40,271 bases of DNA from positions 1-40,271 of the forward strand of contig NZ_BDGT01000045.1 in NCBI RefSeq assembly GCF_001748285.1, given 5' to 3'. This document shows positions 5,630-39,443 of this stretch, piece after piece. Origin of the DNA: Thermogemmatispora onikobensis (GTDB lineage Bacteria > Chloroflexota > Ktedonobacteria > Ktedonobacterales > Ktedonobacteraceae). The position numbers and the translations under genes are program-made. The notes under the pieces are model-generated. The model had not been told where the DNA came from. It ran no database searches and was given only the letters and a program-made list of their open reading frames with translations. Numbering within the stretch: position 1 is the stretch's first letter; the number at the start of each line of letters is the position of its first letter.

Positions 5630-5689
5630 GCTAACAGATTTCTAACGTTTCTCCCACACTCTTCTAACACAGCCTATGGCATCATATGT
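5630..5689 (+). promoter_or_regulatory. Phased TCTAAC array and candidate htpG promoter
   Basis: Hexamers lie on an exact 11-bp grid: GCTAAC 5630, TCTAAC 5641, TCCCAC 5652 and TCTAAC 5663. After the last one come 8 bases, then TGGCATC (5677-5683) and a -10-like ATATGT (5684-5689). The same arrangement in the same orientation precedes groES at 39362-39443. An 11-bp direct-repeat grid just upstream of a -10 is the layout known for OmpR/PhoB-family response regulators. The start codon of htpG is about 120 bases beyond the predicted transcription start. No CIRCE inverted repeat is present. Confidence 0.6.
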
Positions 5690-5816: not shown

Positions 5817-7697
5817 ATGCCAGTTGAAACCCATAAGGAAACGCTGGGCTTTCAGGCGGAAGTCAAGCAATTGCTTGACATCATGATTCATTCTCTTTAC
5901 AGCAATAAAGAGATTTTCTTGCGTGAGCTTATCTCGAACGCATCAGATGCCATCGACCGCCTGCGCTTCGACGCGCTCTCGAACCCCGACCTCTACGAGC
6001 GCGATGCCGACTTCAAGATCCGCGTCTCCTATGACCGCGACGCGCGCACCATCACGGTGAGCGACAACGGCATCGGCATGTCGCGCGAGGAGGTGATCCA
6101 GAATATCGGTACCATCGCCAAGTCGGGCACGCGCGAATTCTTCCAGTCGCTGACCGGCGACCAGCGCAAAGATGCCATGCTCATCGGTCAATTTGGCGTC
6201 GGCTTCTACTCCTCGTTCGTGGTAGCCGATCGCGTCACCTTGCTGACGCGCCGCGCCGGCCTGCCCGCCGATCAGGGCGTGCGCTGGGTGTCCGACGGCC
6301 AGGGCGAGTATACGATCGAGACCATCGAGAAGCCAGGCCGCGGCACCGACGTCATTCTGCATCTGCGCGAGGGCGAGGACGAGCTGCTCAATGGCTACCG
6401 TCTGCGCTCGATCATCCGCAAGTACTCGGACCATATCCAGCTCCCCATCGTGATGAAGGTCGAGGGCAAGGACGAGGAGGAGGTCGTCAATAAGGCTTCA
6501 GCCCTGTGGGCCCGCCCCAAGAGCGAAATCAGCGAGCAGGAATACAAGGACTTCTATAAGTACATTTCACACGACTTCGCCGACCCGCTGGCCTGGGTCC
6601 ACAGCCACATGGAGGGCACCCACGAGTATACGCTCCTGCTCTTCATTCCCTCACAGGCACCTTTCGACCTGTGGCTGCGCGAGCGCCATCACGGCGTCAA
6701 GCTGTATGTGCGCCGCGTCTATATCATGGACGATATCGAAAATAAGCTGCTGCCGCGTTATCTGCGCTTCGTGCGCGGCGTCATCGACTCCGATGACCTG
6801 CCCCTCAATGTCTCGCGCGAGATGCTACAGCAGAACCGCCTGATCGATACAATGCGCGCCACGGCGACGAAGAAGATCCTGGGCCTGCTCAGCGATATGG
6901 CCGAGAAGGAGCCGGGCAAGTATGCTATCTTCTGGCGCGAGTTCGGGCGCGTCCTCAAAGAGGGTCTGGTCGAGGATAAGGCCAATCGGGACCAGATTGC
7001 CCGCTTGCTGCGCTTCGCATCAACGACTAGCGGTCCCGAGCAGTCGGTCTCGCTGGAAACCTACGTCTCGCGCAAGAAAGAGGGCCAGGATAAGATCTAC
7101 TACCTGCTGGCCGAAAGCTACGAGGCCGCCAAGGATAGCCCGCTGCTGGAGATCTTCAAGCAGAAGGGCGTCGAGGTCCTGATCTGGACCGACCCCATCG
7201 ACCATTTCGTGCAGCACGAACTGCAAGAGTATGGCGGTCTGGCCTTCCAGTCGATTGCGCGCGGCGAGGTCGACCTGAGCAAGCTAGAGGATAAGCAGGA
7301 GCAGGAGGAGCGTCAGAAGAGCGCCGACGAGGTGCGCGACCTGCTGGAGCGCTTCAAGAAGGTCCTCAGCGACAAGGTCAAGGATGTGCGCACGACAACT
7401 CGCCTGACAACTTCACCCGCCTGCCTGGTGGTCGACGAGGGCGGCATCGATCCCAACTTGAAACGCCTGCTGCAGGCTGCCGGCCAGGCCGTGCCCGCCG
7501 ATAAGCCAATCATGGAAATTAACCCGCAGCACCCGATTATTCAGCGCCTGCGCCATGAACAGGACGAGGAGCGCTTCGCCGACTGGGCCTGGGTCCTCTT
7601 CGATCAGGCCGTGCTCAGCAGCGGCGACCAGTTGGAGAACCCGATCAGCTTCGTCAACCGTCTGAACAATCTGCTGACACGTCTGGGAACAGAGTGA
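5817..7697 (+). CDS. htpG: Molecular chaperone HtpG (Hsp90)
   Basis: The 626-residue product has the usual Hsp90 length. The N-terminal GHKL ATPase shows NASDAIDRLRFDAL near residues 40-55, DNGIGM near 83-88 and GQFGVGFYS near 123-131. The middle domain carries the typical VRRVYIMDD and NVSREMLQQN segments, and a C-terminal dimerisation region follows. HtpG is a cytosolic ATP-dependent chaperone that remodels client proteins under heat stress. ATG 5817 is preceded by GGAGG (5806-5810) with 6 bases between. It is a single-gene unit; the next gene lies on the other strand. The upstream array shared with groES suggests joint stress control. Confidence 0.97.
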   Translation: MPVETHKETLGFQAEVKQLLDIMIHSLYSNKEIFLRELISNASDAIDRLRFDALSNPDLYERDADFKIRVSYDRDARTITVSDNGIGMSREEVIQNIGTIAKSGTREFFQSLTGDQRKDAMLIGQFGVGFYSSFVVADRVTLLTRRAGLPADQGVRWVSDGQGEYTIETIEKPGRGTDVILHLREGEDELLNGYRLRSIIRKYSDHIQLPIVMKVEGKDEEEVVNKASALWARPKSEISEQEYKDFYKYISHDFADPLAWVHSHMEGTHEYTLLLFIPSQAPFDLWLRERHHGVKLYVRRVYIMDDIENKLLPRYLRFVRGVIDSDDLPLNVSREMLQQNRLIDTMRATATKKILGLLSDMAEKEPGKYAIFWREFGRVLKEGLVEDKANRDQIARLLRFASTTSGPEQSVSLETYVSRKKEGQDKIYYLLAESYEAAKDSPLLEIFKQKGVEVLIWTDPIDHFVQHELQEYGGLAFQSIARGEVDLSKLEDKQEQEERQKSADEVRDLLERFKKVLSDKVKDVRTTTRLTTSPACLVVDEGGIDPNLKRLLQAAGQAVPADKPIMEINPQHPIIQRLRHEQDEERFADWAWVLFDQAVLSSGDQLENPISFVNRLNNLLTRLGTE

Positions 7698-10192: not shown

Positions 10193-13100
10193 TTGCTGCG
10201 CAAAGATCGCGTCTTTGAAATCTTGCGCGCCATGTGTGCGGAGGCCGCCGCTGCCCCCGAAGGCACGGCGCTCAGGCGCAAGCGAGGGTTCAGCGCCGAA
10301 GAAGTCGCGGAACGCGCCGCTATTGATCGCACCAATGCCAGCCGTGACCTCAACCAGTTAGCACAGGAGGGGAAGGTCGAGCGCATTCCTGGCCGTCCTG
10401 TCCTGTTCGCTGTCAGGAGCCTCTCACCCCAACCGTCACCGCTGCCGGTCGGGTCAGAGCCATCGTCGGCCAGGGAGTCGCAGCAGAAGCAGACCCAGCA
10501 AACGCAGGCCCCGGCGGCCACTCGCCAGCAGCCAGATCTGCCGAAGCTGGTCAGACCAGAGGCTCCCAACAAGCTGCCGGTGGTGGTGGCCTCCATGCAA
10601 AGTGGAGCCATAGTTACCAGCTTCGAAACGCTGGTCGGGAGCGACGAAGGACTGAAGGTCGCTATCCAGCAGGCGAAGGCGGCCATGCTCTACCCGCCGC
10701 ACGGGCTACATACTCTCATCTGCGGCCCCAGTGGCGTAGGCAAGACCACTTTTGCCCGCCTGATGCATGCCTTTGCCATCGAATTTGGAGCCTTACCTCC
10801 CAACGCGCCCTTCATCTCCTTCAACTGTGCCGACTATGCCGGCAATCCTCAGCTGCTCATGGCCCACCTCTTTGGGGTTGTCCGCGGGGCCTACACCGGG
10901 GCCGAGCGCGACCGCCCGGGCCTTGTCGAGCAGGCGAACGGCGGCATTCTCTTTCTCGACGAAGTGCATCGCCTCCCGCCCGAGGGACAGGAGATGCTCT
11001 TCTACCTGATGGATCGCGAGCGCTTCCGCCGTCTGGGCGACGTCGAGGAGCGGCAGGCCAGCATTCTGCTCATCGCCGCCACCACCGAGGACCCCGGCGT
11101 CACCTTGCTGCCGACCTTCCGCCGGCGCATTCCCATGCTCATCACCCTACCTGGTCTGGCCGAGCGCTCAATGCAGGAGCGTTACGCCCTCATCCGCGCC
11201 TTCTTCACCACCGAATGCAGCAGCATCGGCGCCAACATCCACGTTGAACCCCAGGTCATCCAGGCCCTCCTGCTCTACGAATGCCCGGGCAACATCGGGC
11301 AACTGCGCACCGACATCCAGCTCCTCTGTGCCCGTGCCTATCTCGACTACCGCACGCGCAACCTCAGCGAGCTGCACGTCGACGTCAGTATCTTGCCCGA
11401 TCACGTGCGCCGCGGCCTGCTGCGCACTGCCGAGCTGCAGCGCTCGCTGGAGCCGCTGCTTGACGTCCTCAAGGTTGCTCACATCTTCACCCCCACCGGC
11501 CTCAGCCTCGATGTCCTCCCGCACTCGGCCCGCGACCTCTACGAGACCATCAGCCAGGAGGTGCGCGCGCTGCGCCGCAGCGGCCTCACCGACAGCGAAG
11601 TCAATCGTCTCCTGCAGCTAGAGATCCAGCACTACTTCCAGCGCTTCGCCGACGAGGTGACGCGGGCCCGCCAGGAGGCAGCCCCGCACCTGGTCGACGA
11701 GCAGGTCGCCGCCGCCTGCCGCGCCGTGGTCGATTACGCCGCCCAGCGCCTGGAGCGCGACCTGCCCGAGAAGCTGGCCCTCGTGCTGGCCATGCACGTC
11801 ACCAGCACGCTGGAGCACCTGGCCCGCGGCCACCAGGTCCCCGCTTCGGTCATCGAATCCGTGGCCGAAACTTATCCGCGCGAATATGAGGTAGCGCGCG
11901 CCGCCCTGGCTCAGCTGCGCAGCGCCCTCCAGGCCCCGCTGCCCGAGAGCGAGGTCGATGTGCTGGCCGTGCTCCTCGCCCATGCCGATAGCCTGCTCAG
12001 CAGCGAGCAGCCTGGGGTTGGCATTGTGGTCGCCGCCCACGGGCGCGGCATCGCCGCCGGCCTGGCCGAGCTGGCCAATACCCTGGTCGGCGTCAGAACG
12101 GTGCGCTGGGTCGAGCTGTCGCTGGAGCAGTCGCCCGACGAGCTGGTGGCCCAGGTTGCCAGTTGGGTGCGCGTGGCCGACCAGGGGGCCGGCGTTCTGC
12201 TCCTCGTCGACTTTGTCTCTTTGCTCTCCCTGAGTGAGCTAGTCGAGCAACAGACCGGCGTGCGCGTGCGCACGGTCTCCGACGTCAGCGCTCCTCTGGT
12301 GATCGAGGCAGTGCGCCGCGCTCAGCGCTCGCGCGATCTGAGTCTCGACCAATTGGCCGAGAGCCTGACCCTCAACCGCGCCATCAGCAGCCGTAGCAGC
12401 AGCCGCGAGCGCCACACTGAGCCATTGCCCACGAGCGGCGCAGAAGGCTCCAGCCGCGAGGCCGGGCGCGTGATTCTCTCAGTGTGTCTGACGGGCTTCG
12501 GCAGCGCCGCCAAGATTGCCGAGCTGATCAATGAAGCCCTGCCCGGTCTGCACAGGCAGGGGATCGATATCCTGTGCATGGATATGACGCTCTCCTACAA
12601 GACGCGCGAGGACATCCAGCAACTCGTCGGCAACCGCCAGGTGATCGCCGTTGTGGGCACCATTAACCCACACCTGGACGATTATCCTTTTATCCCCTTG
12701 ACGGATCTGCTCTTCGGCGATGGCCTGGCCCGCCTGCGCACCCTGCTGGGGGAGACGCTCATCGATCCAGCTCTACTGCAAGCCGGGCGCGAGCAGGAGC
12801 CAGCGATGACGACCCCGCTCACGCTGCCCCTGGCCAGTGCAGTGACCGCAGGCTGCCCCTCCCTGGGGGAAGCGCTGAGCGATGGCAACGGGACCCAGGC
12901 GAGTCAGGCGCAGCTCTTCTCACGCCGCGCCGATCTGGTGCGCCAGCTCACGGAGACCCTCAACCAGCGCATGATTTTCCTCAATCCGGCGCGCGTTATG
13001 CCCCTGCTCGATCGGATGATCGAGCTGATCGAGGTCGAGGTCGGCGAGAGCTTCCCGATGGAAGTCCTGGCCGGCCTGATGCTCCACCTGGCCTGTATTT

Positions 13101-13306
13101 TGGAGCGCGGCGTCCCCTACAAAGGGATGCTGGTGAGCGAGGCGGTGCGCCACCAGGTCGAACAGCAGTTTGCTCGCGACCTCTCGATCTGCCGCCACGC
13201 GCTGCAGCTCTTGGGAGAGCAGGTCGGGCGCTTCCTCCCCGATGAAGAGGCTTACAATATCGTCTGCATTCTGCGTCAGCTCGACATCTTCGCCGCCCGC
13301 CCCTGA
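10193..13306 (+). CDS. LevR-family sigma-54-dependent activator with PTS regulation domains
   Basis: The start is TTG 10193 with AAGGAAG (10179-10185) upstream. Domain order in 1037 residues: an N-terminal winged-helix region (about 1-75, ending KVERIPGRPVLF); an AAA+ domain with Walker A GPSGVGKT (181-188), loop GAYTGA (232-237) and Walker B FLDE (D256, E257); PRD1 (about 480-580, H535); an EIIA-mannose-like domain with AAHGRG (H616); an EIIB-like domain with CLTGFGSA (C765); and PRD2 (about 920-1035, H965). Such proteins remodel sigma-54 RNA polymerase and are switched by PTS phosphorylation. The GAFTGA contact loop here has Tyr for Phe. The next genes encode EIIB and EIIC behind a sigma-54 promoter, so they are its probable targets. 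Confidence 0.93.
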   Translation: MLRKDRVFEILRAMCAEAAAAPEGTALRRKRGFSAEEVAERAAIDRTNASRDLNQLAQEGKVERIPGRPVLFAVRSLSPQPSPLPVGSEPSSARESQQKQTQQTQAPAATRQQPDLPKLVRPEAPNKLPVVVASMQSGAIVTSFETLVGSDEGLKVAIQQAKAAMLYPPHGLHTLICGPSGVGKTTFARLMHAFAIEFGALPPNAPFISFNCADYAGNPQLLMAHLFGVVRGAYTGAERDRPGLVEQANGGILFLDEVHRLPPEGQEMLFYLMDRERFRRLGDVEERQASILLIAATTEDPGVTLLPTFRRRIPMLITLPGLAERSMQERYALIRAFFTTECSSIGANIHVEPQVIQALLLYECPGNIGQLRTDIQLLCARAYLDYRTRNLSELHVDVSILPDHVRRGLLRTAELQRSLEPLLDVLKVAHIFTPTGLSLDVLPHSARDLYETISQEVRALRRSGLTDSEVNRLLQLEIQHYFQRFADEVTRARQEAAPHLVDEQVAAACRAVVDYAAQRLERDLPEKLALVLAMHVTSTLEHLARGHQVPASVIESVAETYPREYEVARAALAQLRSALQAPLPESEVDVLAVLLAHADSLLSSEQPGVGIVVAAHGRGIAAGLAELANTLVGVRTVRWVELSLEQSPDELVAQVASWVRVADQGAGVLLLVDFVSLLSLSELVEQQTGVRVRTVSDVSAPLVIEAVRRAQRSRDLSLDQLAESLTLNRAISSRSSSRERHTEPLPTSGAEGSSREAGRVILSVCLTGFGSAAKIAELINEALPGLHRQGIDILCMDMTLSYKTREDIQQLVGNRQVIAVVGTINPHLDDYPFIPLTDLLFGDGLARLRTLLGETLIDPALLQAGREQEPAMTTPLTLPLASAVTAGCPSLGEALSDGNGTQASQAQLFSRRADLVRQLTETLNQRMIFLNPARVMPLLDRMIELIEVEVGESFPMEVLAGLMLHLACILERGVPYKGMLVSEAVRHQVEQQFARDLSICRHALQLLGEQVGRFLPDEEAYNIVCILRQLDIFAARP

Positions 13307-36767: not shown

Positions 36768-38570
<1,803 letters not shown>

Positions 38571-38666: not shown

Positions 38667-38957
38667 TCAGCTCAGCACGGCCAGAATATCGCTCTCTTTA
38701 AGGACCAGATATTCCTCGTTGTCGAGCTTGAACTCGGTGCCGCCGTACTTGGCAAACAAGACGTGATCGCCCTCGCGCACCTCGATGGGCACCCGGTCCC
38801 CGTTATCAAGCAGGCGCCCACTGCCGACGGCGATCACTGTGCCTTCCTGCGGCTTCTCCTTGGCTGTGTCAGGGATGACGATCCCGCTCTTGGTCACTTC
38901 TTCCTTCGGAAGCGGCTTGACCACGACGCGGTCGCCTACAGGACGAATCTTCGCCAT
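38667..38957 (-). CDS. groES: Co-chaperonin GroES (Hsp10)
   Basis: ATG 38957 ([16 protein letters not shown]) is preferred over GTG 38963, because AAGGGAG lies 9 bases before it. The 96-residue product has the usual length, the mobile-loop region [19 protein letters not shown] and the end [15 protein letters not shown]. It caps the GroEL chamber. It is first in the groES-groEL unit. Its own leader is about 400 bases long if the phased-array promoter at 39362 is used. Confidence 0.97.
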
Positions 38958-38977
38958 GCGCACACACTCCCTTCGCT

Positions 38978-39115
38978 GTTCGTTCGTTCGTTCGTTCGTT
39001 CAGTCAGTTAATTGGTCGGTCAAGTCGGTCGCGAACACCGGCCAGGGGCAAGCAAAAGCAGGCTCACAAAAGGACGGCTGGCACAGCCTCGCCTCCTGCC
39101 TGTCTGTCTGTCTGT
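38978..39115. repeat. Simple repeats in the groES leader
   Basis: Six perfect GTTC units (38978-39001) lie just upstream of the groES ribosome binding site, and four CTGT units at 39100-39115. No gene is supported between 38958 and 39361. Confidence 0.9.
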
Positions 39116-39361
39116 CCGCCGTTCGTCCTGGGCAGCGCTCTGACTCTCTCGCCCGTTCGTCCCGGTGCCGGGCCTGGTTGCTACACTCAGCCGGTACGCC
39201 AGGCCGGCGCGGAGAGGAGAGGCCCGCTTCCGCTCAGCGCGACGCGGCACGACACGACACGGCACGAGGCACTGACCGCTGCTCACCGTCCGTTACTTGA
39301 CCTCGACCGTTTCGTGACTCTCTTCCTGGCTTCGTTATCCTGTCCTGGGTTTTCTCCGCCT

Positions 39362-39443
39362 ATACTAGATGCCACATCCGCCGTTAGAACAACACAAGAG
39401 AAGCGTTAGAGTTCCGTAGGAATTGTGTTAGAGGAATGTTAGA
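39362..39443 (-). promoter_or_regulatory. Phased TCTAAC array and candidate groES promoter
   Basis: On the minus strand TCTAAC starts at 39443, 39432, 39410 and 39388, all on an 11-bp grid; the two empty slots hold TCCTAC and TCTTGT. After the last hexamer come 8 bases, TGGCATC (39374-39368) and TAGTAT (39367-39362) as a -10. This is the same order, spacing and orientation as upstream of htpG. No CIRCE element occurs nearby. Confidence 0.65.

Follow-up and report, generated by a model that had tools for sequence, protein, structure and literature searches.

Phased TCTAAC arrays upstream of htpG and groES

Beyond the sigma-32 group, control of chaperone genes is generally attributed to repressors (HrcA, HspR or CtsR). 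In a 40,271-nt stretch of the Thermogemmatispora onikobensis genome (the window, meaning the whole stretch analysed), htpG and groES-groEL are each preceded by copies of the hexamer TCTAAC set on an 11-bp grid, which raises the question of whether these genes share a control site and what kind of protein would read it. The features concerned are collected in Table 1.

Table 1. Arrays, predicted promoter elements and chaperone genes in the window
Feature	Position	Strand	Details
htpG array	5630..5668	+	GCTAAC 5630, TCTAAC 5641, TCCCAC 5652, TCTAAC 5663; 11-bp steps; profile E 1.3e-7
Extended -10 of htpG	5677..5685	+	TG 5677-5678; hexamer CATCAT 5680-5685; 17 bp from last-box start
htpG (Hsp90)	5817..7697	+	~125 nt downstream of predicted transcription start
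groES array	39383..39443	-	TCTAAC 39443, 39432, 39410, 39388; profile E 1.1e-8
Extended -10 of groES	39366..39374	-	TG 39374-39373; hexamer CATCTA 39371-39366; conserved offset
groES	38667..38957	-	
groEL	36768..38393	-	

The htpG boxes lay where the sequence-only reading had placed them, and its bracketing of the third box was justified, this box having two mismatches to TCTAAC; the first box has one. For groES, the four boxes which that reading had listed on the minus-strand grid were correctly positioned, but two degenerate in-phase units (TCCTAC at 39421 and TCTTGT at 39399) had been missed, bringing the array to six in-phase units. The last box is followed by ACAGCCTA and TGGCATC at htpG, and by GGCGGATG and TGGCATC at groES. 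At groES, TAGTAT, located 3–4 bp beyond CATCTA, is an alternative -10.

Lone TCTAAC hexamers were no more than background in this stretch (7 against an expected 5.3), and the signal is the phasing of the boxes, not the abundance of the hexamer. The groES in-phase box count of 4 was matched by none of 4000 dinucleotide shuffles, and the htpG count of 2 by 7 of 4000. The groES leader, from the predicted transcription start to the ATG, extends over ~400 nt (window 38958-39360, minus strand) and is long in relatives too. Rfam returned no RNA family match in the window, the groES leader included.

Distribution of the array in the genome

We scanned the T. onikobensis genome (5.56 Mb, 112 contigs) by pattern and profile searches. 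The exact pattern TCTAAC-N8-TGGCATC, with no mismatch allowed, was found only at the htpG and groES sites of the window. Exact pairs of TCTAAC boxes spaced 11 or 22 bp apart were confined to four places, all upstream of chaperone genes: htpG and groES-groEL in the window, a second groES-groEL operon (C18:47536) and an hsp20 gene (C10:44989). The phased motif was thus free of the random scatter that would have spoken against a control site. Two pairs with one mismatch, at C2:201866 (11 bp) and C4:19928 (22 bp), look like chance occurrences.

Between the array and the second groES-groEL lies a gene for a small Cys-rich, metallothionein-like protein (CANC...CCSGCAAGGPCSC; L026 1572-1859). It is kept ahead of the second groES-groEL in five genomes of the genus and may be induced together with the chaperonin.

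Conservation of the array in Ktedonobacterales and beyond

Exact 11-bp TCTAAC pairs were carried by 33 of the 47 Ktedonobacterales genomes. Approximately 48 of the ~58 places carrying such pairs were located upstream of groES, hsp20, dnaK, htpG or, once, clpB; the remaining ~10, situated at contig ends or without a nearby chaperone gene, include pairs lacking a chaperone neighbour that look like chance. The clpB gene was rejected as a general member, the two-box site occurring in one genome (L075) and neither in the tested relatives nor at the clpB of T. onikobensis.

A 39-bp sequence-only profile built from 24 arrays matched 46/47 genomes, with 1–5 sites per genome, a count in which reversed two-box sites are under-represented because the profile was trained on groES-type arrays. 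Among 40 newly fetched profile sites, which lay outside the training set except for near-identical htpG copies of the genus, 39 were upstream of groES, htpG or hsp20. The same arrays were present in other Thermogemmatispora species. Across families, the boxes and their phase were kept and the spacer letters varied freely; the hsp20 and dnaK2 arrays often comprised just two clear boxes. These results bear out the proposal of a shared chaperone control site, kept throughout the order and tied almost solely to heat-shock genes, and its expected retention upstream of groES and htpG in relatives.

A search of GTDB R220 (84,980 genomes, one per species) with the exact four-unit pattern gave 28 matches, 27 of them in Ktedonobacteria or in MAGs placed in the order and one in a stray Bacteroidetes MAG. 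When the profile was applied to a 251-genome Chloroflexota sample, only two genomes matched outside the order, where ~200 had been sampled. One of these arrays preceded hsp20 and the other preceded grpE-dnaK-groES-groEL, with TACAGT at the same offset. This recurrence in two Chloroflexota genomes outside the order suggests that the element probably predates Ktedonobacterales.

Promoter geometry in two orientations

In the forward promoters (n = 75), the -10 hexamer was set exactly 17 bp downstream of the last box, measured start to start, with A at its second position in 74/75 and T at its sixth in 62/75. A TG was frequent one base 5' of the hexamer (T in 48/75, G in 59/75), which indicates that TGGCATC is an extended -10 (TGn plus the start of the hexamer). 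The description of eight bases and TGGCATC after the last box was accurate for both genes, but TGGCATC is not a separate element. The gap from the end of the last box to the -10 was 11 bp, or 10–11 bp for a box of 6–7 bp, according to how far the repeat is considered to extend. The forward promoters had no -35, the best TTGACA match at spacers of 15–19 bp averaging 2.42/6 compared with 2.83/6 at random positions.

At type-1 hsp20 and dnaK2, the array was reversed and ended 26 bp upstream of TTGACA-N17-TATACT/CATAAT (spacing 17–18 bp). In more distant families, the reversed arrays lay 15 bp from TTGACA, exactly 11 bp less. A common orientation relative to the gene therefore holds for groES and htpG, but not for one hsp20 class and dnaK2. 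The hsp20 and dnaK2 promoters have TGACTTGACA in common, after which an imperfect palindrome (CTTGACAAAATTTGTTAGG), possibly another operator, covers the -35 (L129, L092, L095, L099, L111, L256). The dnaK2 gene of T. onikobensis was excluded as an array member, since no array was found there despite the same TGACTTGACA promoter.

Relation to HrcA/CIRCE and HspR

The sequence-only reading had the array replace HrcA/CIRCE. The two systems overlap in their targets, HrcA/CIRCE being the classical control of groESL and dnaK; CIRCE, in contrast, is an inverted repeat bound by a repressor, and the array promoters lack it although it is present elsewhere in the genome. Specifically, CIRCE (TTAGCACTC-N9-GAGTGCTAA) was not found at 71 array promoters, where the best match had at least 5 mismatches, the same as in shuffled sequence, and the idea of a CIRCE hidden within them was rejected. 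HrcA was nevertheless present in 44 of the 47 genomes of the order, including T. onikobensis, and CIRCE-like sites (≤2 mismatches) in 39/47. In T. onikobensis, hrcA adjoins dnaK-dnaJ, and the CIRCE-like sites belong to a third groES and a ClpC/ClpE-like ATPase gene; in farther families, the listed CIRCE sites were near hrcA, on the same contig, wherever both were listed. Replacement thus applies to particular promoters, which the array took over, and not to the HrcA/CIRCE system, which persists. The third groES (L171 4234-4658) is a lone, divergent copy apart from any groEL.

The HspR/HAIR motif CTTGA-N11-TCAAG was absent beside htpG and from 49 of 51 groES promoters. At type-2 hsp20, a CTTGATAG-N5-CTATCAAG inverted repeat with the geometry of an HspR HAIR site lies just upstream of the array as a separate element (L192-L201, L213), which suggests double control by the array and an HspR-type site. 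An HspR-like gene was found upstream of dnaK2 in T. onikobensis and its relatives. Taken together, the distribution of HrcA/CIRCE and HspR sites suggests that the array serves groESL and htpG, with HrcA and probably HspR kept for other genes.

A putative winged-helix activator of the chaperone genes

Two traits of OmpR/PhoB-type operators were found in the arrays, namely direct repeats at 11-bp centre-to-centre spacing and a fixed distance to the -10 without a functional -35 (class II). PhoB boxes likewise substitute for the -35, ~10–11 bp before the -10. ArcA, of the same family, has 2–5 direct repeats, often 3–5, at 11-bp centre-to-centre spacing (PMC3798270). The operators of PhoB, Bacillus subtilis PhoP and ArcA resemble the array in having 11-bp head-to-tail repeats close to the promoter, frequently more than two of them; the array differs in its sequence (TCTAAC) and its cytosolic chaperone targets.

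We consider that the arrays probably serve as operator-promoters of one OmpR/PhoB-type winged-helix activator, which would unite these genes in a heat-shock (chaperone) regulon. From the observed motif, phasing, promoter geometry, gene association and conservation, we infer activation, the protein family and heat as the signal. The protein would bind head to tail along one DNA face, one monomer per 11-bp box. At groES, htpG and type-2 hsp20, where 11 bp separate the end of the last box from the -10 and no -35 exists, it would act as a class II activator, bringing the housekeeping RNA polymerase to a -10 that is weak and in many cases extended. The flipped array of type-1 hsp20 and dnaK2 stands upstream of a complete sigma-A promoter and in helical phase with it, and would support class I activation; bound either way on one helix face, the protein could reach the polymerase in both layouts. 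HrcA/CIRCE, and probably HspR, would be retained as distinct layers of control, at promoters that differ from those of the array or overlap them. The fixed, phased geometry in two orientations argues for an activator, and against a repressor or a sigma-factor hexamer.

Repeat geometry cannot separate an OmpR/PhoB response regulator from a SARP activator. The proposed OmpR/PhoB link agrees with 11-bp repeats replacing the -35 at a fixed -10 distance, but SARP-type activators share the repeat spacing. A SARP-type binder (an OmpR-like winged helix combined with BTAD and optionally ATPase/TPR) in place of a phosphorylated response regulator is unlikely, though the likeliest of the rival readings. 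SARP operators (AfsR, DnrI, PimR) consist of direct repeats every 11 or 22 bp that overlap the -35 and come close to the -10, from which the 3' repeat is 8 bp away (PMC10936776, PMC5930380). The arrays have the 11/22-bp spacing, and their gap is 10–11 bp, varying with the repeat end chosen, against ~8 bp in SARP sites. Several very large proteins of T. onikobensis (open frames of 1227–1529 aa) are of a size that suits SARP-like domain architecture, but their Trans_reg_C matches are weak and no SARP candidate emerged as conserved throughout the order. Moreover, known SARPs act on antibiotic genes and secondary metabolism, whereas the array concerns a stress regulon of housekeeping character, and in a different phylum.

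It appears improbable that the array binds an OmpR-type repressor which obstructs RNA polymerase and, like HrcA and HspR, leaves the DNA upon heating. Most known groESL regulators outside the sigma-32 group do repress, and the boxes overlap the -35/-10 spacer region; nevertheless, the forward promoters lack a -35 of their own, which suits a required activator, the -10 offset is fixed, and the reversed arrays lie upstream of the -35 instead of over the promoter.

It is very improbable that TCTAAC represents a -35 hexamer read by a heat-shock sigma factor, with the upstream copies as decoys or relics. One TCTAAC does stand at a fixed -10 distance in every forward promoter, but the 11-bp gap is too short for a -35/-10 pair (15–19 bp), four to six phased tandem copies are kept over the order, the -10 has the usual sigma-A form, and the array is reversible, hsp20 and dnaK2 having it flipped before a complete sigma-A promoter. 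Least credible is chance or copying, by random hexamers or recent duplication of one promoter, for which the duplicated groESL operons, the background level of lone TCTAAC and the ~10 exact pairs away from chaperone genes in other genomes might speak: random hexamers are ruled out by the four paired places in the genome and the rarity or absence of such in-phase counts in shuffles, and the reading as a whole is refuted by order-wide conservation, with boxes and phase persisting across families while spacers diverge, and by arrays in two orientations at the unrelated genes htpG, hsp20 and dnaK.

Comparison with known systems and significance

Two-component control of chaperone genes has precedents. 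Rre1 of cyanobacteria is a NarL-type regulator. The Hik34-Rre1 system controls htpG and groESL1 in Synechocystis, the kinase Hik34 negatively regulating the heat response (PMC3264485), and in Myxococcus xanthus the response regulator MXAN_4468 acts on groEL transcription by enhancing HrcA repression (PMC9040617). As far as the available portions of these two sources extend, they offer the nearest precedents for the array, alike in control of htpG/groESL1 or in a response regulator at groEL, but the former describes no 11-bp array and the latter no conserved direct-repeat promoter array. The array element was not described in the open-licence literature found on Ktedonobacteria/Chloroflexi heat shock, HrcA/CIRCE or response regulators at groESL, and to that extent it can still be called undescribed.

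Overall, it appears quite likely, judging from genome comparison, that a dedicated winged-helix activator drives groESL, htpG, hsp20 and partly dnaK across Ktedonobacterales, from arrays in two orientations, with roots in other Chloroflexota and layered over HrcA/CIRCE and HspR, as an undescribed positive heat-shock regulon. If so, an array of activator geometry on all main chaperone genes of a whole order would represent a different solution beside the old repressors. The array offers an already delimited regulon, an exactly specified motif and a pair of promoter layouts, all open to direct testing, and raises the question of what sensor reports misfolded protein or heat to a direct-repeat activator.

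Candidate binding proteins

The T. onikobensis genome gave 28 Trans_reg_C matches. At least five OmpR-type regulators had reciprocal best matches in all of the other three families that were sampled, and no single one stood out. Orthologues of C34:51809, C16:79585, C2:74232 and C34:29334 are candidate binders. No array preceded any of the OmpR-type genes retrieved from four genomes, so an autoregulated regulator was rejected among them and autoregulation offers no clue to the binder. Among the window proteins scanned, no local regulator gene fitted.

In one Chloroflexota genome outside the order, a response regulator and a histidine kinase (L355 6567-8536) are encoded ~1 kb downstream of the array-bearing hsp20; as a single case, this is no evidence that they regulate the array. 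The window also encodes a large LevR-like regulator (10193-13306, plus strand; Sigma54_activat, PRD and EIIA-man domains), located just before a PTS EIIC gene.
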